Shown piece after piece: positions 2,834 through 64,000 of a DNA stretch of 64,000 nt. How positions within the stretch are numbered: the stretch's first letter is position 1; every line of letters starts with the position of its first letter. The position numbers and the translations under genes were made by a program. The notes below the pieces were generated by a model, which was given only the letters and a program-made list of their open reading frames with translations, searched no databases and was not told the origin of the DNA. This DNA comes from Geodermatophilus aquaeductus (GTDB lineage Bacteria; Actinomycetota; Actinomycetes; Mycobacteriales; Geodermatophilaceae). The stretch spans positions 1 through 64,000 of the forward strand of contig NZ_FXTJ01000007.1 of NCBI RefSeq assembly GCF_900182545.1, read 5' to 3'.

Positions 2834-4609
2834 TCAGCGCGCGGCGAAGTCCGTGCTCGCCGTGGCGGCGGTGAACTCGTCCAGGCGAACCGAGACGGTG
2901 ACGGTCCATGCGCCGGCGGTCGGGAGGGACACCTCGTCGGCGATGTAGTGGCCGGGGCCGCTGGGCACGAGGTCGACCTCGAGCGGGCCGATCTCCTGTG
3001 CGGACTCGGTCAGGGTCACGCGGATCTCCTGCGGCTGGGCGAGCTGCCCGGCCTCGTCGAAGAGGTAGACCATGAGCGTGTTGGGCCCGGTGGCGGCCGG
3101 GTCGACGGTGATCTGCACCGAGCCGGCCGCCGAGGAGGCGTCCTCCCCTCGCAGCGGCAGGGTGACGTCGACCGGCTCGGCGACCTGCGACCGCGCCGGC
3201 GGGGTCCCCACGAGCGCCGCCGCCAGGGCCAGCACCACCGCGCCGATGGCGACCTCACCCAGCACGGAGCGCCGCAGGGCACCGAGGTCCGCCGTCGCCG
3301 CCTCGACCGGCCGCCGCGTCGCCGCGGCGGGTCGAGCCACCGTGTCCCCCGCCTCGGCGCTCACGGCGTGTGCGGTGACCCGGTGACCACCGGGGCGCCG
3401 ACGGGGATCGCCCAGGTGCTGCAGCACCCACGCCCGGGAGACCCCGGCCGCGGCCAGCAGCAGCAGTACCAGCGCCAGCTTGGCGACCAGCAGCCAGCCG
3501 TAGGTGGTGGTCACCAGCGCGACGAGGGACCCGACCTCGCGGACCGACTGCAGGACGCCGGTGGCGACCAGGGCCGCGACCGCCCAGAAGGCCAGGCGGG
3601 AGTAGCCGGTCACCGCGGCGGCCACCGCCGCCGGGGGCACGCCGGGGCGCACCACACCGGTCAGCAGAGCGGTCAGGCCGCCCAGCCACACGGCCATCGC
3701 CGCGACGTGCACGGCCGTGATCGACACGGCGAGCGCGGGAAGCGGGCCGGCGACGGGGTGACCGACGGCCGCCGTCGCCAGCACCAGCCCGGCGGCCGGA
3801 AGCGCCGCGACGGCGATCAGGACCGCCGAGGGGCGTGTCCCCCGGCGCCAGCCGACCGCCAGCGCCGCCGCCAGCAGCAGCGCGCAGAACGCGCGCAGCA
3901 GCAGCGTGACGCCGAACGCGGAGGACGTCGTCGCCGCCAGGAGGGAGGGGTCGAGCAGGGAGCCGAGCCCGGCGCCGGCGGCGTAGGGGCCCTGCAGCAG
4001 GACGGTCAGCAACCCGCCGAGGACGACCGCGGCCAGGCCGGTCGAGGTCAGCCGGCGCATCAGCGGCACGCCCCAGCCGGCCGGCCAGCAGACCAGCAGG
4101 AACACCAGGACGCCGAGCCCGAGCGCCACGCCCGTGAAGCCCAGCCACCGGGCGGCGGGGAGGGCACCGGCCACCACCGGATCGACGTCCTGCGCGCTCG
4201 TGACCGGCGACGGCGCCACGAGCTCGCCGTCACCGACCACGAAGGCGAAGGCCCCGGCGATGGGGTGGGAGTCCTCCGAGACGACCCGGTAGGTCACCAC
4301 GTAGCTGGCGTCCGGGAGGTCGCCGCGCAGCGGGATGGTCACGACCGCGCCGTCCACCGCCGCCCCGCCCGCATCCGCGCGCTCCCCGCCGGGCGCCAGC
4401 ACCCGTGCGTAGCCGGCGCCGAGCTCCACCGCTTCGGTGAACTCGAGCGTGACCTCGGAGGGTGCGGCGGGCAGCCGGACCCCCTCGGCGGGTGTCGTGG
4501 TGGCGAGGGTGGCGTGTGCCGACGCCGGCCGGGCGGTGGCCACGTCGACGAGCACGCCACCGGTGACCGCAACGACCAGCAGCAGGACCACGGCGAACAG
4601 GCGCCTCAC
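2834..4609 (-). CDS. Copper-resistance CopC-CopD fusion with YtkA-like C-terminal domain
   Basis: A 591-residue fusion. A signal peptide (VRRLFAVVLLLVVAV) ends at ASAHA, exposing the CopC copper-ligand histidine at the mature N-terminus; the second CopC signature is SEDSHPIAGAF. A multi-helix CopD region follows, with GHPVAG and VHVAAMAVWLGG. The C-terminus is an extracytoplasmic YtkA/FixH-like domain (GPNTLMVYLFDEAG to AWTVTVSVRL). Such YcnJ-type proteins are proposed to bind copper outside the membrane and import it. The GTG start at 4609 overlaps the stop of the upstream zinc-finger gene by 4 bases (GTGA), so translation is probably coupled. The specific metal and direction of transport are inferred from the family. 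Confidence 0.9.
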   Translation of the reverse strand: MRRLFAVVLLLVVAVTGGVLVDVATARPASAHATLATTTPAEGVRLPAAPSEVTLEFTEAVELGAGYARVLAPGGERADAGGAAVDGAVVTIPLRGDLPDASYVVTYRVVSEDSHPIAGAFAFVVGDGELVAPSPVTSAQDVDPVVAGALPAARWLGFTGVALGLGVLVFLLVCWPAGWGVPLMRRLTSTGLAAVVLGGLLTVLLQGPYAAGAGLGSLLDPSLLAATTSSAFGVTLLLRAFCALLLAAALAVGWRRGTRPSAVLIAVAALPAAGLVLATAAVGHPVAGPLPALAVSITAVHVAAMAVWLGGLTALLTGVVRPGVPPAAVAAAVTGYSRLAFWAVAALVATGVLQSVREVGSLVALVTTTYGWLLVAKLALVLLLLAAAGVSRAWVLQHLGDPRRRPGGHRVTAHAVSAEAGDTVARPAAATRRPVEAATADLGALRRSVLGEVAIGAVVLALAAALVGTPPARSQVAEPVDVTLPLRGEDASSAAGSVQITVDPAATGPNTLMVYLFDEAGQLAQPQEIRVTLTESAQEIGPLEVDLVPSGPGHYIADEVSLPTAGAWTVTVSVRLDEFTAATASTDFAAR

Positions 4610-5265
4610 GCCACCGCCTCCCGCCCGGACGCGGCGGAGCGCCGACGTCGGCGTCCCCGCCAGGCCACGGTCGCCACGAGCCCCACCCCGACGAGCACCA
4701 GGACGTGCAGGACCGCCCGCTCGACGTGCACCCATCCCGCATCCAGGTCCGACAGGGTGAGGGCCGCCAGGAGCACGCTGAAGCTGGCGAGGAACGGCAG
4801 CGCCCCCGCCGCCAGGTTCGGTGCGGCGGCCACCGCGAGGAAGGCCACCGCCACGGCGAGGTTCCACGCTCCGGTCTCGTGCGCCATGTGCACCGGCGCA
4901 CTCATGGCGCCGGCGCCCCGCTGCAGCGCCGGCCAGGCCAGCCCGGCCTGAGCCACCCCGATGGCCAGCAGCGCCAGCCGCAGGGCGGTGCCGAGCACTC
5001 GGCACCTGACGGAGGCCGCCGTGGTCAGCGACGACGGGAGGGCAGCCAGGATGGCCACCGTCAGATCGGGCACGGCACGCGCCGGGACGATCCGCGCCCG
5101 GCGGGTGACCTGTGCGGCCTGGCCGCTCCAGTCAGCACAGGCTACGCACGTCGCGAGGTGGCGATCGAGATCGGCGACCGGCATCCCGGGCGCTTCGCCG
5201 TCGAGTCGCGCCGAGATCGCCTCACGGAAGCCGGCGCACCGCCTGCCTCGGTCATCGACACTCAA
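4606..5265 (-). CDS. Membrane protein with zinc-binding anti-sigma (zf-HC2) motif
   Basis: A 219-residue protein. Residues about 35-47 contain the ZAS-type pattern HLATCVACADW (HxxxCxxC), typical of anti-sigma factors. About four hydrophobic segments follow and the C-terminus is Arg-rich. It precedes the CopC-CopD gene with a 4-base overlap. No ECF sigma factor gene is adjacent, although ZAS proteins are usually encoded beside their sigma partner. The TTG start at 5265 is chosen because a GAGAGG ribosome site lies 8 bases upstream and no ATG or GTG is available in frame. It may sense copper or redox state through the Cys/His cluster, which is inference. Confidence 0.75.
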   Translation of the reverse strand: MSVDDRGRRCAGFREAISARLDGEAPGMPVADLDRHLATCVACADWSGQAAQVTRRARIVPARAVPDLTVAILAALPSSLTTAASVRCRVLGTALRLALLAIGVAQAGLAWPALQRGAGAMSAPVHMAHETGAWNLAVAVAFLAVAAAPNLAAGALPFLASFSVLLAALTLSDLDAGWVHVERAVLHVLVLVGVGLVATVAWRGRRRRRSAASGREAVA

Positions 5266-18564: not shown

Positions 18565-18607
18565 GCCCGACCGGGACTCGACGCGGCCCGCCGGTCAGCG
18601 GTCGGGC
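18565..18607. repeat. Inverted repeat upstream of the relaxase, candidate oriT/operator
   Basis: GCCCGACCG (18565-18573) and CGGTCGGGC (18599-18607) are perfect inverse complements separated by 25 bases. They lie 84-126 bases upstream of the relaxase ATG and between it and the divergent HTH gene. Origins of transfer usually lie next to the relaxase gene and carry inverted repeats. An operator for the HTH protein is equally possible. Confidence 0.4.
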
Positions 18608-18690
18608 GTTGGGACACCAGCCGCAGTGTGAGGAACTGGAGGACCGCGGATCCGCGACTGGAGGTGCCGTTCGTACCGTCCGCGGGCGTG

Positions 18691-21600
18691 ATGTCCCTGC
18701 ACAAGCTGACGGCGGGCGAGGGATACACCTACCTGACCAGGCAGGTGGCGGCGCTGGACGCCACGGAGCGGGGCCATGGCGGCCTGGGGGACTACTACGC
18801 GCAGCGCGGTGAGTCGCCCGGGACGTGGGCCGGGAGCGGCCTGGCCGGGCTGCCCGGGGTGGACGCCGGGCACCCGGTCGGCGAGCGGCAGATGGCGGCG
18901 CTGTTCGGGCAGGGGCGTCATCCGGACGCGGAGCGCCTCGAGCGGGAAGCTCTGGCCGCGGGCCGGACACCGGCCGAGGCGCGGGCCGCCGGTGCCCTCG
19001 GCCTGCCGTTTCTGCTCTACAGCGCACCGGCGGACGGCTTCCGGGCGCGGTGCGCGCAGCGGTTCGCTGCGGTGAACGCCGCCCGTGGCCTGCCGCGGGA
19101 GGCGCCGCTGCCGGCGGAGGAACGGGCCCGGATCCGCAGTCAGACGGCGCGGGGCATGTTCGCCGTCGCGTTCGGCCGCCCGCCGGCCGACGCCCGGGAG
19201 CTGTCGGGGTTCATCGCCCGGGCGTCGCGGCCGGCGACCCGGGCGGTGGCCGGCTGGGACCTGACGTTCTCGCCGGTGAAGTCGGTCTCGGCGCTGTGGG
19301 CGCTGGCCCCGCGGGAGGTCGCCGAGCAGGTCGAGGCTGCCCACGCCGCGGCGGTCGCCGACACGCTCGCCTGGCTGGAGGAGACCGCCGCCTTCACCCG
19401 GCTAGGCGCCGGCGGCGTGCGCCAGGTGGAGACCACCGGCGTGATCGCCGCGGTGTTCACCCACCGCGACTCGCGCGCCGGCGACCCGGACCTGCACACC
19501 CACGTGGCTGTGAGCAACAAGGTGCAGACCCGCGACGGGCAGTGGCGGGCGCTGGACGGGCGGGTGCTGCACAAGGCCAACGTCGCGGCCTCGGAGCGGT
19601 ACAACACCCGGCTGGAGGCGCACCTGGTCACCCGGCTCGGGGTGCGCTTCGCCGAGCGTCCCGGCGGGGACGCCGGCAAGCGGCCGGTGCGCGAGATCGT
19701 CGGCGTGGACCCGCGGCTGCTGAGCACGTGGTCCTCGCGGCGGCGGGCGATCGACGTCGCCCGGGCGGCGCTGACCGCGGAGTTCCAGGCCGAGCAAGGC
19801 CGGCCCCCGACGGCGGCCGAGGCGATCGCGCTGGCCCAGCAGGCGACCCTGCGGACACGGGAGGCCAAGCACGAGCCCCGCTCGCTGGCCGAGCAGCGGG
19901 CGGCCTGGCGGCGCCAGGCGCTGGCCGTCCTCGGGAGCGCGTCCGCCCTGACCGGCATGCTCGGCCGCGTCCTCGGCCGTCCGCCGCACCGCCGGCGCGC
20001 GGTCACCGAGTCCTGGGTCGCCGCGGCCGCGGCCCGGGTGCTGGACACGGTGAGCGGGCAGCGGGCGAGCTGGCAGTACTGGCACGTGCGCGCGGAGGCC
20101 GAGCGGCTCGTGCGCGGAGCCGGCCTGGCCCCGGGCGACATCGACCGCGCCGTGGCCCGGGTGACCTCAACGGCCCTCTCCCCCGCCCACGCCATCCCGC
20201 TGGGCGATCCGGATCCGGTGGTCGAGCCGCCGCAGCTGCGCCGCTCGGACGGGGCCAGCGTGTACAGCGTCGCCGGCGCCCGCCGCTACACCAGCGCGGC
20301 GGTGCTGGACGCCGAGGCCCTCCTGCTCGCCGCGGCCGGCCGCGGCGACGGCCGCCGCGCGGATCCGGCCGTCGTCGAGCTGGCGCTGCTGGAGGCCACC
20401 GCCAACGGCCGGGAGCTCAACCCCGGTCAGGTGCAGCTGGTGCGGGACCTGGCCCGCAGCCGCGCGCGGGTGCAGCTGGCCCTTGCCCCGGCCGGCACGG
20501 GCAAGACCACCACGCTGGCCGCCCTGGCCCGGGCCTGGACCGCCGACGGGGGCAGCGTGCTGGGCCTGGCCCCCTCGGCGGTGGCCACCGCCGGACTGCG
20601 CGAGGCGATCGGCGCACCGTGCGACACCCTCGCCAAGCTGGTCTGCTCCCTGGACACCGGGGACCCGCCCGACTGGGTGGCCGGGATCGGGCCGGACACG
20701 CTGGTCGTCGTCGACGAGGCGGGCATGGCCGGCACGCTCGACCTCGCCCGCACGGTGGCCTACGTGCTGGGGCGGGGCGGGTCGGTGCGGCTGGTCGGGG
20801 ACTCCCAGCAGCTGGCCTCCGTCGCCGCCGGCGGCGTGCTGGCCGAGATCGCCGCCACGCACGGCGCGGTGACACTGACCTCGCTGGTGCGCTTCACCGA
20901 CCCGGCCGAGGCCGCGGCCACCGTCGCCCTGCGCGACGGCGATCCCACCGCCCTGGGCTTCTACCTCGACTCCGGTCGGGTGCACGTCGGCGACGGAGCC
21001 ACCTGCGCCGAGCAGGCCTACACCGCCTGGGCTTCCGACCGCGCCCGCGGTGCCGACGCGCTGCTGCTGGCCGCCACCCGCGAGGTGGTGCAGCAGCTCA
21101 ACGAGCGCGCCCGCGCCGACCGGCTCGCCGCGCTCGGGCAGCCGGTGGGTGCGGAGGTCGCGCTGGCCGACGGCACCCGGGCCGGCGCCGGGGACCCGGT
21201 GATCACCCGCGCCAACGACCGCCGGCTGCCGCTCGGCGCGGCCGACTGGGTGAAAAACGGCGACCGCTGGACCGTCACCGCCGTCGGTGACGACGGCGCC
21301 CTCGCCGTCGTCCACACCGCCACCGGCCGGCGGCTCACCCTGCCGGCGGCCTACGTGCGCACGTCCGTGCAGCTGGGCTATGCCGCCACCGTGCACGGCG
21401 CCCAGGGCGTCACCGCCGACACCTGCCACACCGTGCTCACCGGCACCGAGTCCCGGCAGCTGCTCTACGTGGCGCTCACCCGCGGCCGCGCGGCCAACCA
21501 CCTGTATCTGGCCACCGTCGGGGACGGGGACCCGCACAGCATCGTGACGCCCGCCGCGGTGTTCCCGCCGACCGCCACCGACCTGCTGATCGCCATCCTC

Positions 21601-24204
21601 GGCCGCGACGGCGCGCAGACCTCGGCCACGGGCGCGCGCCGGGCACTGGCCGATCCGGCCGTCCAGCTGCACGCCGCCGCCATCCGGTACATCGATGCGC
21701 TGCGGTTCGCCGCCGAGCAGCACCTGGGCGCCGCGGCTGCAGAAGAACTGGAGAACGCCGCCGAGCAGGTCCATCCGGGGCTGACCGCCGCGGCGGCGTG
21801 GCAGACGCTGCGGGGGCACCTGGCGCTGCTCGCCTGCGCCGGCGCCGACCCGATCGCCGCCCTGACCACCGCCGCCGCGGTCCGGGAGCTCGGCAGCGCA
21901 CACGACCCCGCCGCCGTGCTCGACTGGCGGCTGCCCGGGTCCGGTGCGGCGGGTCCGCTGCCGTGGCTGCCCAGCGTGCCGACGGCACTGGCCGACGACC
22001 CCCACTGGGGGCCCTACCTCACCGCCCGGGCCGGTCACCTCACCGCCTGCGCGGGGCGGGTCGCCGACACCGCCGCCACGATGACGCCGGCGACCGCACC
22101 CGGCTGGGCCCGACCGCTGCTCGACCCGGCCCGGGCGTCGCTGCGCGCCGACCTCGCCGTCTGGCGCGCCGCACTCGCCGTCCCCGACAGCGACCGGCGC
22201 CCCACCGGACCACCCCAGCCCGCGGCCACCGCCCGCCGGCAACAACGGCGGCTCGAGGAGGCCCTGGCCGCGACCACCCCGGCGCGAGGAGGCGCGCTGT
22301 GGGCGGCGCTGGCCGACGGCATCGATCCCCGGCTGCGCCGCGATCCGCACTGGCCGGCGCTCGCCGACCGGCTGGCCGCCGCCGACCGCGCCGGCCTCGA
22401 CGCCGCCGGCCTGCTCGCCGCGGTCGCGGCGCAGCGGCCGCTGCCCGACGAGCTGCCCGCCGCCGCGCTGTGGTGGCGGCTGGCGCCCCACCTCGCCCCG
22501 GCCACCGTCGCCACCGGCCCCGACGGCGCCGGGCTGCGCCCCGACTGGTGCAGTGCGCTGCTGGAGCTGTTGCCCGACGACCACGGGCAGCGGGTGCTGG
22601 CCGGCCCCGCGTGGCCGGCCCTGGTCGCCGCGGTCAGCACCGGGATCCGCGGCGGCTGGTCCCCCGCCGACCTGCTCGCCGCCGCGACCGCCGGCCTGCC
22701 CACCGGGACAGACGGCGACCCGACCGGAACGGGGGTGGCCGAGGCGCTCGTCTTCCGCGTCGCCGCCCTCACCGACCCCGCACCCGTCGAGACTGCCGAG
22801 CCGCTGCCGGCTGACCTGCAACCGTCTGACGACGCCGACCAGCTCCTCCCCCTTGAGGACCAGGCCGCTGCCGTCACCGTTGATCGGGCGGACCCGCCCC
22901 CCGATGACCCCGACGTGCCCTTCCATCGCGGCCACGACGTTCCCCCACCACCGGTCGCGCCGCGGTACGTGACGCCGGACCCCTTCGCCCCGACCGGGCA
23001 GCCGGGCGTCGACGACGCCGACTACCTGCTCGAGCAGCACTTCTGGGCCACCGCAGCCGTCCGCCGCGACCGGCTGGTCGAGCTCAACGCCGAGGCCGCC
23101 GCCTTCTTCACCGACTCCTACCCCGGCTCCTGGGCGCCCGGGTACCTGCGGGAACGGCTGGGCACCGATCTCACGCCTGATACACCCTTCACCCCCGGGT
23201 ACGCGCCGGGCGGCTGGACCGCGCTGGTCGACCACCTGCGCGGCCGGGGTGCCACCGACGACGAGCTGCTCGCCGCCGGCCTGGCCCAGCGCGCCCGGAC
23301 CGGGACCCTGATCGACCGGTTCCGCGACCGGCTCACCTTCCCCACCCGCGACGTCGACGGTGTCGTCCGCGGCTTCGTCGCACGCCGCAACCCCGCCGCC
23401 GCCGAGGACGGACGCGCCGGCCCCAAGTACCTCAACACCCCCGGCACCGACCTCTACCGCAAGGGCGAGCACCTGCTCGGGCTGCACGAGAGCCGAGCGG
23501 CGCTGGCCGCCGGCGCCGCCCCGGCGCTCGTCGAGGGACCGCTGGACGCCATCGCCCTCACCCTGGCCGGCGACGGGCGGACCGTCGGTGTCGCTCTGCT
23601 CGGCACTGCCCTCACCGACCGGCAGGCCGACCTGCTCCGTCCTCACATCCGGGGCGACGGCCCCGGTGTCCTCGTGGCCACCGACGCCGATGACGCCGGC
23701 CGGCGGGCCGCCGAGCGGATGTACTGGCAGCTCACCGCCCGCGGCGACGATCCGCGCCGGCTGGGGCTACCCGACGGCCGCGACCCCGCCGACCTGCTCC
23801 GCGAGGGCGGCACCCCCGCCGTGCAAGAGGCGATCGACCGGGCCGGGAGCCTGGCCGCCCACCTCCTCGACGCTCGCCTCCACGAGGCGCGCGCCGGTGG
23901 TGCCTCCGGTCCCGCGGTCCTGGGCGAGGTGGCGGCGGTCGTCGCGGCCACTCCACCGCTGCGCTGGCTCGAGCACATCGACCGGGTCACCACCCGCCTG
24001 CAGCTGCGACCCGGCCTCCTGCACGCCGCGGTGCTCGACGCCAGCGGGGGGTCGGCACGCGACGCCGGCACCCAACCGGGCCACCACGTCGCTGCCACTC
24101 CGCGCGACGAGCCCGCCGCCCTCCAGACGCCTCCGATGCGACCGGCCACGGACCGACGGGTCTCGGCCCCGTTGGCACGGGGAGGTCCTGCGCCGAGCCG
24201 GTGA
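18691..24204 (+). CDS. MobF relaxase-helicase fused to a primase-like TOPRIM region
   Basis: A 1837-residue protein. The N-terminus (HKLTAGEGYTYLTRQVAALD, Tyr12/Tyr14, then GDYYAQRGESPGTW) and the metal-binding DLHTHV (267-272) define a TrwC/MobF relaxase, which nicks oriT and stays bound to the transferred strand. An SF1 RecD-like helicase follows: Walker A PAGTGKTT (600-607), Walker B LVVVDEAG (from 671). Residues about 1500-1700 match the DnaG catalytic region: RFRDRLTFPTRDVDG, PKYLNTPGTDLY, TOPRIM EGPLDA (Glu1615) and TDADDAG (from 1664). No CHC2 zinc finger precedes it. The ATG at 18691 is preferred; a GTG directly before it is also possible. It probably starts transfer, unwinds DNA and may prime in the recipient (inference). 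Confidence 0.92.
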   Translation: MSLHKLTAGEGYTYLTRQVAALDATERGHGGLGDYYAQRGESPGTWAGSGLAGLPGVDAGHPVGERQMAALFGQGRHPDAERLEREALAAGRTPAEARAAGALGLPFLLYSAPADGFRARCAQRFAAVNAARGLPREAPLPAEERARIRSQTARGMFAVAFGRPPADARELSGFIARASRPATRAVAGWDLTFSPVKSVSALWALAPREVAEQVEAAHAAAVADTLAWLEETAAFTRLGAGGVRQVETTGVIAAVFTHRDSRAGDPDLHTHVAVSNKVQTRDGQWRALDGRVLHKANVAASERYNTRLEAHLVTRLGVRFAERPGGDAGKRPVREIVGVDPRLLSTWSSRRRAIDVARAALTAEFQAEQGRPPTAAEAIALAQQATLRTREAKHEPRSLAEQRAAWRRQALAVLGSASALTGMLGRVLGRPPHRRRAVTESWVAAAAARVLDTVSGQRASWQYWHVRAEAERLVRGAGLAPGDIDRAVARVTSTALSPAHAIPLGDPDPVVEPPQLRRSDGASVYSVAGARRYTSAAVLDAEALLLAAAGRGDGRRADPAVVELALLEATANGRELNPGQVQLVRDLARSRARVQLALAPAGTGKTTTLAALARAWTADGGSVLGLAPSAVATAGLREAIGAPCDTLAKLVCSLDTGDPPDWVAGIGPDTLVVVDEAGMAGTLDLARTVAYVLGRGGSVRLVGDSQQLASVAAGGVLAEIAATHGAVTLTSLVRFTDPAEAAATVALRDGDPTALGFYLDSGRVHVGDGATCAEQAYTAWASDRARGADALLLAATREVVQQLNERARADRLAALGQPVGAEVALADGTRAGAGDPVITRANDRRLPLGAADWVKNGDRWTVTAVGDDGALAVVHTATGRRLTLPAAYVRTSVQLGYAATVHGAQGVTADTCHTVLTGTESRQLLYVALTRGRAANHLYLATVGDGDPHSIVTPAAVFPPTATDLLIAILGRDGAQTSATGARRALADPAVQLHAAAIRYIDALRFAAEQHLGAAAAEELENAAEQVHPGLTAAAAWQTLRGHLALLACAGADPIAALTTAAAVRELGSAHDPAAVLDWRLPGSGAAGPLPWLPSVPTALADDPHWGPYLTARAGHLTACAGRVADTAATMTPATAPGWARPLLDPARASLRADLAVWRAALAVPDSDRRPTGPPQPAATARRQQRRLEEALAATTPARGGALWAALADGIDPRLRRDPHWPALADRLAAADRAGLDAAGLLAAVAAQRPLPDELPAAALWWRLAPHLAPATVATGPDGAGLRPDWCSALLELLPDDHGQRVLAGPAWPALVAAVSTGIRGGWSPADLLAAATAGLPTGTDGDPTGTGVAEALVFRVAALTDPAPVETAEPLPADLQPSDDADQLLPLEDQAAAVTVDRADPPPDDPDVPFHRGHDVPPPPVAPRYVTPDPFAPTGQPGVDDADYLLEQHFWATAAVRRDRLVELNAEAAAFFTDSYPGSWAPGYLRERLGTDLTPDTPFTPGYAPGGWTALVDHLRGRGATDDELLAAGLAQRARTGTLIDRFRDRLTFPTRDVDGVVRGFVARRNPAAAEDGRAGPKYLNTPGTDLYRKGEHLLGLHESRAALAAGAAPALVEGPLDAIALTLAGDGRTVGVALLGTALTDRQADLLRPHIRGDGPGVLVATDADDAGRRAAERMYWQLTARGDDPRRLGLPDGRDPADLLREGGTPAVQEAIDRAGSLAAHLLDARLHEARAGGASGPAVLGEVAAVVAATPPLRWLEHIDRVTTRLQLRPGLLHAAVLDASGGSARDAGTQPGHHVAATPRDEPAALQTPPMRPATDRRVSAPLARGGPAPSR

Positions 24205-24458
24205 CGTGGCCGCCATGCCTGGCGATCGACGTCCGCGGCCACGTCCCGACGTCTCGGATCTCATCGGTCGGTTCGATCACCGCCGTGCGCAGCAGCGCAA
24301 CGCCGTGCCGATCCGTCGCGCGCAGCTGACACCGATCGGGAGGACCGGGCGGAGCTGGCGCTCGTCGACGACGGCAGATCGATCCCGTGAGCCACCGTGG
24401 GCCGCGTCGTCCTCGGGACCGGTCCTCACCTACCCCATTCCAGCGCTATCATCGCCGG

Positions 24459-24854
24459 GTGTCGATGAGTGTTTCCGGAGACGCTGTATCCGACGGGCCG
24501 CACCTGGAGACGTCCGGCCTGTCCCCGGCCGCCTCGCTGTTCCACAGCCTGTCGGATCCCACCCGCCTGGCGATCCTGCGCCACCTGTCACTCGGGGAGC
24601 ACCGCGTCGTCGAGTTGACCAAGCACCTGGGGCTGGCGCAGTCGACGGTGTCCAAGCACCTCGCCTGCCTGCGCGACTGCGGTCTCGTCGACTCCCGCCC
24701 CCAGGGGCGCGCGTCGATGTTCTCGCTGACCACCCGCGACGAGCTGCTCGACCTGCTGGCCGCCGCCGAGCGACTGCTGGCCCTCACCGGCGATGCCGTC
24801 GACCTGTGCCCCACCTACGGAGCGACGAGCCGCGAGGAGACGCAGGTCCGATGA
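24459..24854 (+). CDS. ArsR-family metal-responsive repressor
   Basis: A 131-residue winged-helix protein: SPAASLFHSLSDPTRLAILR, recognition helix LGLAQSTVSKHLACLRDCGL, wing RPQGRASMFSL. Cysteines occur in the recognition helix region (HLACLRDC) and near the C-terminus (DLCPTYG), a layout like CmtR-type Cd/Pb sensors. TATCAT at 24447-24452 lies 7 bases before the GTG at 24459, suggesting leaderless transcription from that start; the ATG at 24465 is the alternative. Its stop overlaps the CDF transporter ATG (ATGA), so it probably represses this cassette. Confidence 0.88.
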   Translation: MSMSVSGDAVSDGPHLETSGLSPAASLFHSLSDPTRLAILRHLSLGEHRVVELTKHLGLAQSTVSKHLACLRDCGLVDSRPQGRASMFSLTTRDELLDLLAAAERLLALTGDAVDLCPTYGATSREETQVR

Positions 24855-25510
24855 GCGAGCACACCACCAAGACCCTCAGCCCCGCCGACACCGAGCGCCT
24901 GACCAGGCGAGGGCTGCGCCTGGCGCAGTTCACCGTCGTCTACAACGTCGCCGAGGGCGCCATCGCCATCACCGCGGGCATCCTCGCGGGCCTGGTGTCA
25001 CTCGTCGGCTTCGGCGTCGACTCCGGCATCGAGTCCGCGGCGTCGGTGCTGGTGGGCCTGCGTCTGGCCGCCCGACTGCGCAACGGCGAGGCCGACGAGG
25101 CCAAGGAGCGCCGAGCCCTCAAGGCCGTGGCCGTCACCTTCTTCGTGCTCGCCGCCTACGTGGTCATCGAGGGCGTCCGCAGCCTCCTCAGTGACGAGGC
25201 CCCGGACAACTCCCCCGTCGGGATCGTCCTGCTCGTCGCCTCGATCATCGTCATGCCGCTGCTGGTCCGCGCGAAGCGCCGGGTCGGCGAGGCCCTCGGC
25301 GGCGACCGGCTCATCCTGGCCGACGCCGCCGAGACGAGGATCTGCGTGCTGCTCAGCATCTCCACCCTTCTCGGCCTCGCCCTCTACGCCCTGGTCGGCT
25401 GGACCTGGCTCGACCCCGTCGCCGGCTTCGTCATCGCCGCCTTCGCCATCCACGAGGGACGGGAAGCCTGGGAGGGCGAACTGGTCGAGGACGACGACGA
25501 TGACGACTGA
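24851..25510 (+). CDS. Cation diffusion facilitator (CDF)-family transporter, short form
   Basis: A 219-residue protein with about five to six helices. The first metal-site motif is GFGVDSGIESA in helix 2 and the second is DPVAGFVIAAFAIHEGREAW in helix 5-6, as in CDF divalent metal exporters. It lacks the long cytoplasmic C-terminal domain of CzcD/YiiP and ends in a run of Asp. It is coupled to the ArsR gene upstream and overlaps lspA downstream by 11 bases. Likely role: efflux of Zn/Cd/Co-type ions using the proton gradient; specificity is not deducible. Confidence 0.88.
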   Translation: MSEHTTKTLSPADTERLTRRGLRLAQFTVVYNVAEGAIAITAGILAGLVSLVGFGVDSGIESAASVLVGLRLAARLRNGEADEAKERRALKAVAVTFFVLAAYVVIEGVRSLLSDEAPDNSPVGIVLLVASIIVMPLLVRAKRRVGEALGGDRLILADAAETRICVLLSISTLLGLALYALVGWTWLDPVAGFVIAAFAIHEGREAWEGELVEDDDDDD

Positions 25511-60985: not shown

Positions 60986-61058
60986 TGCTCCCCCGATTGG
61001 ACTCGAACCAATAACCCTGCGATTAACAGTCGCATGCTCTGCCAATTGAGCTACGGGG
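60986..61058 (-). tRNA. tRNA-Asn (GTT anticodon)
   Basis: A complete 73-nt cloverleaf on the minus strand: acceptor TCCCCCG/CGGGGGA, D arm GCTCAATTGGCAGAGC, anticodon stem-loop GCGACTGTTAATCGC (anticodon GTT), T arm ATTGGTTCGAGTCCAAT, discriminator G; CCA is not encoded. Its 3' end faces the excisionase side, the direction in which tRNA-targeting elements integrate. Confidence 0.95.
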
Positions 61059-61199
61059 GACGGGCGGGCGTGGCCCGCGCGCTCGTCGAGGATACCGCAC
61101 GGCTCCGGGCGCCCTGCGCAGGCTCCTCCGATCGCGGACGGTCGGGTCCGCCCGTAGCGTGATCACCTCGTCGTTCTCGTCTCGCACACGGAGGTCACC

Positions 61200-61519: not shown

Positions 61520-62101
61520 TCAGTCGGGCTGGTCCGCCGCGACCGCCTCGGCGAGCTTGCGGCGGGCCACCTCGCGGGCCTCGGGATCGCCGCGGTCGGC
61601 GTCGTCGTCGAACACGACGGTCCACTCGCGCACTGCCTGACCGGGTACCCGACGGGCCACCAGCACCACCCCGCCGCCACCGGGCAGCGGTGAGCGGCGG
61701 CTGGCGACGACGGTCTGGTCGACCCGGCGGCGCACCACGGCGGGCAGGTCGCCGGCGTCGCTGAGCGCGTACCGCTCGGCGGGCTCGCGTGCCTGCACGC
61801 CGGGCTCCACCTCGGTCAGGGCGCTGACGGTGAAGCTGCCGCCGCCGTCGTTGGTGGCCGACCACCGCGCCGACCCCACCTCGTGCCAGGGCAGCAGGCC
61901 GACGTCGCCGGCCCGGTCGAGCGGCAGGTCACCCGGGACGACGCGCAGCCCGCGGCTGGTGGCCACCAGCCAGCCCTGCCCGCGGACCAGCACGCCCCAG
62001 GCCAGCACCCGCTCGTCGGGGTCCGGCGAGGCCTGTACCGCGGCGCGCACCGGCTCGGGCGCGCGGGTGAACCGGCGGCGCAGCGCCGAGGCGACGCTCA
62101 C
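61520..62101 (-). CDS. Hypothetical protein coupled to dnaG
   Basis: A 193-residue soluble protein (PVRAAVQASPDPDERVLAWG; GWLVATSRGLRVVPGDLPLD; ADRGDPEAREVARRKLAEAV). A beta-rich, PH-like N-terminal half is followed by a helical end. The GTG at 62101 overlaps the dnaG stop by 4 bases, so it is co-expressed with primase. The family is widespread in Actinobacteria but I cannot name a function. Confidence 0.75.
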   Translation of the reverse strand: MSVASALRRRFTRAPEPVRAAVQASPDPDERVLAWGVLVRGQGWLVATSRGLRVVPGDLPLDRAGDVGLLPWHEVGSARWSATNDGGGSFTVSALTEVEPGVQAREPAERYALSDAGDLPAVVRRRVDQTVVASRRSPLPGGGGVVLVARRVPGQAVREWTVVFDDDADRGDPEAREVARRKLAEAVAADQPD

Positions 62102-64000
62102 GTGAGCCCGCCGATCGCCCGCTGCCGCAGCGAGATCGCCTCCTGCTCCAGCGCCATGAGGCGGGAGAAGGCGCGCATGTACTCGTCGCCCTGCTCGACG
62201 GGGTTCATCCGCTGCAGCCTGCCCTTGAGTGCGGTGACCTGCCGGACGGTGGCCATCTCCTGCAGCCGCGCCAGCACCGCCGACACGTAGCCCGCGTCGG
62301 CCTCCCCCACCGAGCGCAGCGGCTCGACGGCGAGCGCGGTGAGCTGGGCGCGCGCGGTCTCGCGGTCGCAGTGCGCGGCCACCTCGTCCAGCCACGCCGG
62401 CCCGGTGACCTGCGCGGCCGCCGCTCCCCCGGCCTGCGCCACGGCCGCGGCGACGGCGGCGTAGTCGGGGTCGGTGTAGGCCTCCGGCGCGATCGCGTCG
62501 AACGACGGCCCGGCGATCTCGGGCACCTGCAGCGCCGCCTTCACCGCCTCCCGCTCGACGGCGAGCGCGGCGTCGTCGGGGGTCCGCTGCGGCGCGCGGG
62601 GGCGCCGGGGCGGCGCGGTGTCCCCGCCGGTGATGCGGCGGACCCGCTCGAGCACCTCGCCCTCGTCGGTGTCACCGATCAGCCCGGCCAGCCGGCGGGC
62701 GTAGGCCGGGCGCAGGGCGTGGTCCTTGACCTGGGCGAGCAGCGGCGCCGTCTTGTCCAGCGCGGCGACCCGGCCCTCGACGGTGTCGAGGTCGTACTCG
62801 GCCAGCGTCGTCCGCAGCACGAACTCGATCAGCGGGGTGCGCCGGGCGACCAGGTCGCGGACGGCGGCGTCGCCGTGGGCCTGGCGCAGCTCGCAGGGGT
62901 CGCGCCCGTCGGGCTCGACGGCGACGTAGGTCTGCGCGACGAAGCGCTGGTCCTCCTTGAACGTCTTCATCGCGGCGGCCTGCCCCGCGGCGTCGCCGTC
63001 GAAGGTGTAGACGACCTCCCCGCGGAACTCGTCCTGGTCCATGAGCAGCCGCCGCAGCACGCTGATGTGCTCGGGGCCGAACGCGGTGCCGCAGGAGGCC
63101 ACCGCCGTCGTCACCCCGGCCAGGTGGCAGGCCATGACGTCGGTGTAGCCCTCGACGACGACGGCCTGGTGCTTCTTCGCGATGTCGCGCTTGGCTCGCT
63201 CGATGCCGTAGAGGACGGTGCTCTTCTTGTACAGCGGCGTCTCGGGGGTGTTGAGGTACTTCGGGCCGGGGTCGTCGTCCATGAGCTTGCGGGCGCCGAA
63301 GCCGATGACGTCGCCGGTGATGTCGCGGATGGGCCACACCAGCCGGCGGTGGAAGCGGTCGATGAGCGTGCCGCGCGAGGACTCCTTGGCCAGCCCCGCC
63401 GTCACCAGCTCCTGCTGGCTGTACCCCTTGCCGCGCAGGTGGCGGGTGAGGGCGTCCCAGCCGGCCGGGGCGAACCCGCAGCCGAAGTCGAGCGCGACCT
63501 GCCGGTCGAACCCGCGGTCGGCGAGGAACTGCCGCGCCGGCGCGGCCTCGGGGCTGCGCAGCTGCTCCGCGTAGAACTCGAACGCCGCGGTGTTGGCCGC
63601 GACCAGCCGCGCCCGCTGCCCGGCCTGCGCGCGGTCGGGCGCGCCGGTGGGCCGGCCGCCGTCGTCCTCGTACTTGAGGTCGATGTTCGCCCGCGCCGCC
63701 AGCCGCTCGACGGCCTCGGTGAAGCTCAGGTGGTCGATCTGCTGGACGAAGCTGATGACGTCCCCGCCGGCTCCGCAGCCGAAGCAGTTGCCGGTCAGGA
63801 TGTCGTCTTCCAGCGTGAAGGCGTGCGTGCCGGGCACCTCGGCGCAGTAGACCTCCTCCACGCGGTCGCTCCACTCGACCGACCGGACGACCCAGCTCCT
63901 CTTCAGGCGCCGGGCCTCGGAGTGCTGCCAGGCCGTCCGCAGATGGGCCCTCTCCACGTCCCGCGCGGGGCCCGACCGCAGGTCGGCGCGAGAGTCCGGC
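62098..64000 (-). CDS. dnaG: DNA primase, C-terminal extein plus intein end (partial)
   Basis: The frame is open to the right edge, so the gene continues beyond the window. From codon 63786 downwards it encodes the second Cys pair of the CHC2 zinc finger (CFGCGAGGDVISFVQ), the primase core (FHRRLVWPIRDITGDVIGFG; GPKYLNTPETPLYKKS) and the TOPRIM motifs EGYTDVMACH and TFDGDAAG. The DnaB-interacting C-terminal region completes it. DnaG makes RNA primers for replication. Upstream of that Cys codon the same frame carries an intein C-terminus (listed separately), so the mature zinc finger forms only after protein splicing. The frame runs straight through, with no need for an internal start. Confidence 0.93.
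   Translation of the reverse strand, partial: PDSRADLRSGPARDVERAHLRTAWQHSEARRLKRSWVVRSVEWSDRVEEVYCAEVPGTHAFTLEDDILTGNCFGCGAGGDVISFVQQIDHLSFTEAVERLAARANIDLKYEDDGGRPTGAPDRAQAGQRARLVAANTAAFEFYAEQLRSPEAAPARQFLADRGFDRQVALDFGCGFAPAGWDALTRHLRGKGYSQQELVTAGLAKESSRGTLIDRFHRRLVWPIRDITGDVIGFGARKLMDDDPGPKYLNTPETPLYKKSTVLYGIERAKRDIAKKHQAVVVEGYTDVMACHLAGVTTAVASCGTAFGPEHISVLRRLLMDQDEFRGEVVYTFDGDAAGQAAAMKTFKEDQRFVAQTYVAVEPDGRDPCELRQAHGDAAVRDLVARRTPLIEFVLRTTLAEYDLDTVEGRVAALDKTAPLLAQVKDHALRPAYARRLAGLIGDTDEGEVLERVRRITGGDTAPPRRPRAPQRTPDDAALAVEREAVKAALQVPEIAGPSFDAIAPEAYTDPDYAAVAAAVAQAGGAAAAQVTGPAWLDEVAAHCDRETARAQLTALAVEPLRSVGEADAGYVSAVLARLQEMATVRQVTALKGRLQRMNPVEQGDEYMRAFSRLMALEQEAISLRQRAIGGLT
63787..64000 (-). other. 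Intein (C-terminal part) inside the DnaG zinc finger
   Basis: Directly before CFGCG lies the intein C-terminal splicing region RVEEVYCAEVPGTHAFTLED followed by DILTGN. It shows block F (VEEVYCAEVPGTHAFTL) and block G (ILTGN|C): Asn at the last intein residue (codon 63787-63789) and Cys as the +1 extein nucleophile. The penultimate residue is Gly instead of the common His, as in many ...TGN|C inteins. The N-terminal splicing block and any homing endonuclease lie beyond the window edge. Confidence 0.9.

Follow-up and report, generated by a model that had tools for sequence, protein, structure and literature searches.

Class 1 inteins carry a nucleophile at position 1; class 3 inteins, of which 1701 were surveyed, are defined as lacking an N-terminal Cys (PMC7891396) and hold a Trp-Cys-Thr triad at positions B12, F4 and G5 of the splicing blocks (PMC5222942). 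In class 1 inteins ThrB7 has been described as spring-loading residue 1 (PMC6195587), and position F4 is most often occupied by Asp and next by Cys (PMC4031507). Class 3 was reported to be monophyletic and the class 1 inteins with CysF4 polyphyletic (PMC3196547). Two origins of class 3 have been proposed, one through loss of the first nucleophile in a phage intein (PMC3196547), the other separate from class 1, since hardly any splicing was seen after the triad had been grafted onto a class 1 intein (PMC7664689); the latter work also made a variant of the gp41-1 intein in which Trp and Cys were grafted and Cys1 was kept. Here we describe an intein in dnaG, the primase gene of Geodermatophilus aquaeductus (genome of 5.43 Mb), found at the edge of a window of 64,000 nucleotides (positions 1-64,000 of contig NZ_FXTJ01000007.1, hereafter C7). 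It joins the Cys1 and ThrB7 of class 1 with the full triad of class 3 in one natural family, so that the combination engineered in the gp41-1 variant is present naturally. This combined active-site signature was overlooked by an initial annotation of the window, which had reported the intein itself. Genomes, loci and contigs are labelled G, L and C, G000 being the genome of G. aquaeductus.

An intein within the zinc finger of DnaG

As dnaG crosses the window edge, the flanking contig sequence was appended to read the rest of the gene. A single stop-free frame (C7:64659-62098, minus strand) encodes a precursor of 853 residues, counted from the first ATG at 64659; an alternative and more usual dnaG start, MAGRGRIRAADI, lies at 64602. 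The product shows the domain order expected of a chromosomal DnaG (TIGR01391, PF01807, PF08275, Toprim, PF10410, PF08278), with E values of 6.6e-112 for TIGR01391 and 1.3e-29 for the CHC2 zinc finger PF01807, the latter matching in two stretches. Residues 83-291 of the precursor (C7:64413-63787, minus strand) form an in-frame insertion of 209 residues which, having blocks A, B, F and G and a +1 Cys, is identified as an intein. It begins with CLAGETGVLTEDG, containing block A (CLAGETGV); block B is HATDEHRWFV, block F EEVYCAEVPGTHAFTLEDD and block G ILTGN, followed by CFGCGAGGDVI. The part of the frame that lies within the window at 63787-64000 comprises the last 71 intein codons, ending in ...GTHAFTLEDDILTGN, ahead of CFGCGAGGD.

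With the intein taken out, the sequence reads CPFH...NLFH/CFGCG, where the slash marks the junction, and corresponds to the zinc finger of CHC2 type known from DnaG (Pfam PF01807). The four zinc-ligand positions, which we take to be the Cys and His residues of CPFH and CFGC, are divided by the intein, its +1 Cys being the third of them. The initial annotation had placed an intein in the chromosomal dnaG, splitting the finger exactly before its CxxC pair, and both claims are borne out. It had also named two observations that would speak against an intein, the lack of an N-terminal splicing block and an early stop past the window edge; neither holds, because block A starts at 64413 and the frame runs stop-free to the dnaG start. 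The comparison it recommended with an intein-less DnaG agrees as well, the primase of the congener G046 reading NLFH/CFGCGAGGD around the same junction, as the exteins of our copy do. A chance or frameshift artefact was rejected in view of the extended open frame and of 30 loci of the same kind in the family Geodermatophilaceae. A further suggestion, to extend the contig in search of block A and a LAGLIDADG endonuclease, led to block A; no LAGLIDADG motif was found in the 209-residue intein in an alignment of the 30 family rows, although longer relatives have one.

Active site, fold and phylogeny

The DnaG intein has Cys1, Thr64 (ThrB7) and His67 (HisB10), as in class 1, together with the triad W69, C190 and T207. 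It thus presents the nucleophile of class 1 and the Trp B12, Cys F4 and Thr G5 of class 3, but its Cys1 places it outside class 3 as defined in PMC7891396, and the survey reported there would have set the whole DnaG-intein family aside because its definition requires the absence of an N-terminal Cys. With class 1 inteins (Ssp DnaB, Mtu RecA and the second DnaB intein of the same genome) it shares Cys1, the TxxH of block B, the terminal Asn and, by prediction, the HINT fold. It differs from them at B12, F4, G5 and G6, where it has Trp, Cys, Thr and Gly, and 22 class 1 reference rows have hydrophobic residues, Asp or Asn, Val, Ser or Leu, and mostly His, respectively (A1 C22; B7 T16/S6; B12 F13/I4/L3/V2; F4 D20/N2; G5 V14/S7/L1; G6 H20/R1/S1). 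Conversely, Trp B12, Cys F4 and Thr G5 are common to the class 3 inteins (Msm DnaBi1, 6BS8/6OWN; Mch DnaB1, 6RIX; the first DnaB intein and a dCTP deaminase-like intein of the same genome), which differ by Ala1, AspB7 and HisG6, and the DnaB one of G. aquaeductus by Ser+1, where the DnaG intein has Cys1, ThrB7, GlyG6 and Cys+1. All 11 class 3 reference rows, mostly DnaB P-loop inteins, read A, D, W, C, T, H at A1, B7, B12, F4, G5 and G6, of which only Ala1 and AspB7 are free observations since the script that chose the rows (28 of 34 loci read) demanded the motifs H.W and [TS]HN together with a Cys in block F.

The combination is constant among the DnaG inteins read. A protein search of 112 Geodermatophilaceae genomes matched 31 of them; the 30 loci returned (L012-L041) are all DnaG inteins at the identical site, so that 30 of the 112 genomes carry one, and the remaining genome, G096, has an intein in the RNA ligase gene RtcB. 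Every one of the 30 loci, none being dropped, has Cys1, ThrB7, HisB10, TrpB12, CysF4, ThrG5, GlyG6, the terminal Asn and Cys+1. A wider genome scan (one genome per species; 80 of 103 loci kept, 79 readable, L203 being cut at a contig end) gave DnaG inteins that agree at the eight counted positions in 79/79 cases, and the two sets together read C, T, W, C, T, G at A1, B7, B12, F4, G5 and G6, with Cys+1. In 33 rows chosen to represent the family (14 DnaG, 2 RtcB and 17 viral) the same positions hold C33; T33; W33; C33; T31/V1/S1; and G30/R1/H1/M1. Of 34 viral loci, which include several near duplicates and two whose C-terminal part was unread (L107, L118), 33 have Cys1 and one (L114) has Pro1. 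The peptide patterns of the genome and viral scans contained LTG(N) or the Cys of block F, and CysF4 was a criterion in picking the 17 viral rows, so that in these sets the residues concerned are partly invariant by construction; Cys1, TrpB12 and ThrB7 were absent from the patterns, but the script for nine leftover viral loci sought T..H.W. The only two Cys of the G. aquaeductus intein are Cys1 and CysF4, which is also the case in 6 of the 9 mini-inteins of the family Geodermatophilaceae. In the literature passages searched, which do not cover Tori and Perler 2011, no family with Cys1 and the full triad was found; the phrase "DnaG intein" and any study of DnaG zinc-finger inteins were likewise not found in the literature searched.

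Intein profiles match weakly and with mixed outcome: the intein alone scored above the cut-off of TIGR01443 (16.9 against 15.6) and below those of TIGR01445 and PF14890. A sequence search of solved structures gave nothing significant (best E value 0.24, an unrelated chain), and the best match of a profile search, the VMA intein 7qst, was not significant either (0.079). An AlphaFold2 model was examined for what it says of the fold; its input was the orthologue from Geodermatophilus africanus (81% amino-acid identity), with the 203-residue intein, five residues of each extein and an alignment of 54 sequences, of which 48 came from the 79 DnaG loci of the scan and 6 were viral. The mean per-residue confidence (pLDDT) is 83.4; averaged in blocks of ten it amounts to 94-98 for residues 11-100, 51-72 for 101-170 and 90-97 for 171-210, and it is 58 for the last three residues. 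A HINT fold is predicted at high confidence in the splicing domain, and the linker region has low pLDDT. Of 297 chains aligned with VIA-align 2, 92 reached Z >= 8, and the structure matches are inteins: a class 1 Ssp DnaB variant (Z 19.1, the best; 3.5 A over 147), Npu DnaE (Z 18.9; 1.9 A over 132), the class 3 Msm DnaB (Z 17.4; 2.0 A over 122) and the engineered gp41-1 with the triad (Z 16.7; 2.0 A over 124). The predicted fold fails to separate the intein classes. Between G. aquaeductus and G040 the ratio of non-synonymous to synonymous substitution rates (dN/dS) is 0.135 in the splicing domain (130 codons), 0.703 in the linker (73 codons) and 0.284 in the C-extein (559 codons), ratios which indicate that the splicing function is conserved and the linker is drifting.

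Phylogenies were built from short alignments with FastTree supports, near-identical viral duplicates being omitted; the class 3 references were the first DnaB intein of G. aquaeductus and its relatives, and 11 of 29 loci were omitted from the class 1 sample (3 similar to included rows, 8 with ends not found or looking wrong). In the tree with this better class 1 sample (66 sequences, 137 columns) the DnaG-intein family forms a clan at 0.966, and at 1.0 when the six signature columns are removed; class 3 forms a clan at 1.0 both times, and class 1 at 0.835, three of its rows leaving without the signature columns. Once the three members with Pro1 (L114, L322 and L124) are added, they group with the family at 0.909 (0.936 without signature columns), class 3 staying outside at 1.0; the viral Pro1 pair is drawn within the family, but the nearest split is supported at only 0.099 (0.707 without signature columns). 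Since the class 3 clan reached 1.0 without the family in every tree, including a first one of 78 sequences and 144 columns, the DnaG inteins do not belong to it, and plain class 3 membership was rejected for Cys1 and the separate clan. The trees thus delineate a separate clan of inteins in DnaG, RtcB and phage proteins, marked by Cys1/ThrB7 with the triad and including Pro1 members, in which three states occur: Cys1 with just CysF4, Cys1 with the full triad, and Pro1 with the full triad.

Distribution, transfer and related inteins

All 79 readable scan loci lie in DnaG at the zinc-finger site, the residues after the junction being C[FY]GC in 72 and CHGC in 7. Their hosts are actinobacteria and alphaproteobacteria (Geodermatophilus, Modestobacter, Blastococcus, Nocardioides, Nonomuraea, Streptomyces, Azospirillum and others). 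The count is a lower bound and partly preselected because peptide patterns were used. A family profile applied to even genome samples matched 32/397 genomes in the order and 10/394 in the class, counting RtcB and further hosts. Inteins at this site of DnaG are therefore not rare, and the statement of the initial annotation that few are known in DnaG is not supported; DnaG is already listed in a table of intein hosts (PMC5874633). The closest DnaG intein is that of G. africanus DSM 45422, which is a mini-intein too. Among the 30 loci of the family Geodermatophilaceae, 21 are 313-315 residues long, about 105 residues more than the G. aquaeductus copy overall, and bear a LAGLIDADG-like motif (consensus LLGWLAGYFAADG), the other nine having 153-209 residues. 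In the scan, 67 of 79 exceed 300 residues, 2 have 211-300 and 10 have at most 210; the motif pattern was recognized in 56 of the 67 long ones.

Within the genus the intein is present in 9 of 26 dnaG genes, the other 17 having a precise empty site at [FWY]H/CFGCG. The two nearest dnaG genes, of G046 (C-extein 99% identical in amino acids and 96.7% in nucleotides) and G041 (98% in amino acids), are both empty. The nearest intein by identity (82% of nucleotides), that of the congener G040, sits in a dnaG just 86.6% identical; in the closer dnaG genes of G055, G045, G063 and G049 (91-92% of nucleotides) the inteins show 68-77% identity across the aligned length, in which the linker is counted. Splicing-domain dN is lowest to G040 (0.068), but this simple picture is blurred by dS, which is slightly lower to G043 (0.464) and G055 (0.472) than to G040 (0.508), the nearest by amino acids and the one sharing the linker. 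In 7 of 7 comparisons the dS of the intein exceeds that of the C-extein. Because of this and of the empty nearest genes, vertical descent with dnaG is not favoured and the data point to transfer of the intein; a precise loss from the sisters G046 and G041 is possible. As no endonuclease motif remains, the intein would not be expected to home by itself.

In phage records, the best tblastn places of the DnaG intein fall mostly within ribonucleotide reductases; inteins of this host protein were compared from Thermobifida phage P318, Thermus phage G20c, Morganella phage MP1 and viral contigs. The intein of phage MP1 has the same signature as the DnaG intein; that of phage G20c, in the same clan, reads C, T, F, C, S, G, with Phe B12 and Ser G5 in place of Trp and Thr, and two viral contigs have Pro1 in place of Cys1. 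The latter, L114 and L322, are 73% identical to each other and share the identical site SGYN/P...VTGN/CSYLPINDP in open frames of 1314 and 953 residues, and their C-exteins have weak, below-cut-off matches to ribonucleotide reductase. The third Pro1 member, L124, is cellular with very short exteins and may be a remnant; searches from it led for the most part back to the DnaG and RtcB inteins already known, with a single phage (P318, itself a Cys1 case) and no viral contig; its weak hits L318-L320 were left aside as unreadable. Kindred inteins occur in RtcB genes at ...N/CHHN (L122, L123, L125 and L065-L067), the host being recognized by Pfam RtcB for L122 and L123 and judged by eye for the remaining ones, of which L125 is spread over two frames; in G110 an intein is present in DnaG as well as in RtcB. 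One phage contig (L096) has two family inteins in one frame of 1356 residues, the second beginning at the +1 Cys of the first.

The G. aquaeductus DnaB (L121 in G000:C1:777500-785500, minus strand), with Pfam LAGLIDADG_3 in two stretches, contains a class 3 intein at the P-loop (L121:2667-3875; Ala1, DAQHQW, VRCIQV, PTHN/S; PDB 6rix at 1.2e-39 and 6bs8 at 4.4e-37) and a class 1 intein (L121:888-2165; site SDLRESG/SIEQDAD). Two further inteins of this genome are a class 3 one in a dCTP deaminase-like gene (G000:C1:478800-481600; L301:449-2275, minus strand; Ala1, DAAHLW, VRCIQV, PTHN/S) and a 152-residue class 1 mini-intein in a radical SAM gene (G000:C4:200867; L043). When the complete genome was searched with TIGR01445, the DnaG intein was missed; the model found two of the five inteins, the second of DnaB and that of the radical SAM gene, the DnaG, first DnaB and dCTP deaminase ones being found otherwise, and model-based intein counts may therefore run low.

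A genome search with the DnaG C-extein and the intein end gave two matches, dnaG itself and a primase/TOPRIM domain fused to a relaxase (window 23056-23910). The possibility that another intact dnaG frees the cell from its reliance on splicing was rejected on this result, the search having given just the relaxase-fused DNAG_N/Toprim domain. The relaxase gene (window 18601-24201, plus strand) encodes a TrwC/MobF relaxase and AAA helicase with DNAG_N and Toprim fused at the C-terminus, in which no zinc-finger family was matched; in several congeners, too, matches lie in long open frames (most of 1842-2033 residues). The relaxase gene suggests an integrated conjugative element. The coordinates of the intein and other features are collected in Table 1.

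Table 1. Positions of the DnaG intein, its host gene, nearby genes and Pro1 relatives (window coordinates unless a contig or locus is named)
Feature	Position	Strand	Remark
DnaG mini-intein, C-terminal 71 codons (plus 1 nt)	63787..64000	minus	remainder outside the window at C7:64001-64413
Intein block A, CLAGET	C7:64413-64396	minus	frame translation beyond the window
Intein block B, TDEHRW	C7:64224-64207	minus	frame translation beyond the window
Triad Cys, at position 4 of block F (VYC; intein residue 190)	63844..63846	minus	constant throughout the 30 rows of alignment A1 and the 54 of A2
Block G end, Thr207-Gly208-Asn209 (triad Thr, unusual penultimate Gly, terminal Asn)	63787..63795	minus	
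+1 Cys codon, C-extein nucleophile (putative) and Cys that opens the CxxC half of the CHC2 finger	63784..63786	minus	
In-window linker, in place of a LAGLIDADG endonuclease (intein residues about 96-172)	63898..64000	minus	alignment, dN/dS, pLDDT
dnaG C-extein: second zinc-finger half, DNAG_N, TOPRIM and DnaB-binding domains	62101..63786	minus	stop codon 62098-62100
tRNA-Asn adjoining dnaG	60987-61060	minus	
CopC/CopD frame	2837-5035	minus	
Cation-efflux domain frame	23360-25507	plus	
Pro1 relatives with the full Trp-Cys-Thr triad	L114/L321:2501-3442; L322:1442-2383; L124:1257-2237		two viral, one bacterial

Splicing chemistry, possible control and significance

From the frame, the blocks, the insertion site, the empty alleles, the purifying selection on the splicing domain and the HINT prediction for the orthologue, we infer splicing and the following order of steps. 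The precursor would be translated whole with its ligand positions split two and two, the +1 Cys occupying the intein active site; the intein would fold as a HINT domain, and Cys1, helped by Thr64 and His67, would form the N-terminal thioester, a class 1 step. The N-extein would then move to Cys+1, with Cys190 of block F as helper or relay in place of the usual Asp, and Asn209 would cyclise without a penultimate His. Excision and the ligation of FH to CFGC would unite CPFH and CFGC as the zinc site. The lineage would have gained the intein by transfer, or its sisters have lost it precisely. We give a probability of about 0.65 to the reading that a self-splicing mini-intein of this kind interrupts the zinc finger of the single full DnaG of the cell.

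Several observations weigh against this reading. The intein scores under the cut-offs of TIGR01445 (16.9 against 24.5) and PF14890 (19.2 against 35.8), and the structure model is that of the G. africanus orthologue, not of the G. aquaeductus copy, and comes without active-site distances. The triad is the signature of class 3 and three relatives in the clan have Pro1, so that a start of splicing from CysF4, with no Cys1 involved, may be feasible. The phylogeny, for its part, is weakened by the first tree, in which the node of the family reached only 0.256, by class 1 not being a clan without the signature columns, by the DnaG copies not being monophyletic, with viral and RtcB rows intermixed, and by class 3 falling with class 1 in the Pro1 tree once these columns are removed, which leaves no tie between the DnaB class 3 inteins and the DnaG-intein family.

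That the insertion is dead or decaying, as the missing endonuclease motif, the absence of a penultimate His and the weak profile scores could suggest, is very improbable. It sits in the single full dnaG found in the genome with its catalytic residues intact, and the dN/dS of its splicing domain is low; the penultimate Gly is common to all DnaG copies read (30 family and 79 scan loci), and in a mycobacteriophage intein with a native Gly at this position the change to His made precursor accumulate (PMC5050341). If the intein splices, initiation by Cys1 alone is somewhat favoured, as Cys1 is invariant together with ThrB7. That CysF4 is invariant along with Trp and Thr, and that relatives with Pro1 exist, argues for at least a contribution of CysF4, and a use of both Cys1 and Cys190 is a tentative second choice, initiation by Cys190 alone being improbable. 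The latter would amount to class 3 chemistry, in which Cys190 would make the first attack, straight on the N-terminal junction and without need of Cys1, as in the mycobacterial DnaB intein 1. Trp and Cys in 33/33 and Thr in 31/33 of the chosen family rows (17 of them viral and picked with CysF4), the Pro1 members of the clan and the presence of a genuine class 3 intein in the DnaB of the same cell (Ala1, DxxHxW, VRC, THN/S) speak for it; nevertheless it appears unlikely, given Cys1 accompanied by ThrB7 in 30/30 family, 79/79 scan and 33/34 viral loci, the Ala1 and AspB7 of all 11 class 3 rows, and the separation of the two clans even without the six signature columns. A relay through three thiols, in which the N-extein would be handed as a thioester from Cys1 to CysF4 to Cys+1, or in which either of the first two could start, is conceivable though not favoured. 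It accords with the three Cys being invariant in 30/30 and 79/79 loci, with the central place of CysF4 between both junctions in a class 3 structure (PMC6195587) and with the Pro1 relatives, but the invariance of CysF4 could also mean a helper role, class 1 inteins with CysF4 being known (PMC4031507, PMC3196547).

Beyond the chemistry preferred here, with Cys1 as initiator, the site raises the question of control. A regulated switch, by which zinc, copper or oxidants would block splicing and priming would pause under stress, is doubtful. The +1 Cys is both putative nucleophile and zinc-ligand position; zinc binds CysF4 of the M. smegmatis DnaB intein 1 and blocks its splicing, H2O2 being inhibitory as well (PMC7360933, PMC6195587), and G. 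aquaeductus DnaB carries a class 3 intein of this type. Oxidation within the DnaG intein would involve the catalytic pair, as its two Cys are Cys1 and CysF4. However, the switch would be dispensable since 17 of the 26 congeners are without the intein, and its sporadic presence, with endonuclease-bearing relatives, is what a selfish element would show. Inhibition by itself would not prove regulation, because a number of inteins are inhibited in vitro by divalent cations (PMC7360933). The initial annotation had placed the intein next to metal-resistance genes, but the CopC/CopD frame is about 59 kb and the cation-efflux domain about 38 kb away.

The DnaG inteins could also bear on the origin of class 3. 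One possible though not probable scenario is that a wide family keeps Cys1/ThrB7 and the triad, that Cys1 and CysF4 both act in a three-thiol relay with Cys+1, and that the loss of Cys1, replaced by Pro in the phage ribonucleotide-reductase members of the clan, has produced a second, independent kind of class 3 intein. If true, class 3 chemistry would have arisen more than once, contrary to published accounts, which confine the triad to class 3, treat class 3 as monophyletic and exclude its direct derivation from class 1. A natural family with both sets of residues and Pro1 members in its clan makes the origin of class 3 testable by simple point mutants. For the organism itself, the priming of replication would depend on splicing at a residue that later holds zinc. 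As the partner helicase DnaB carries two inteins, one of the type blocked by zinc and peroxide in mycobacteria, both DnaB and DnaG would need splicing.

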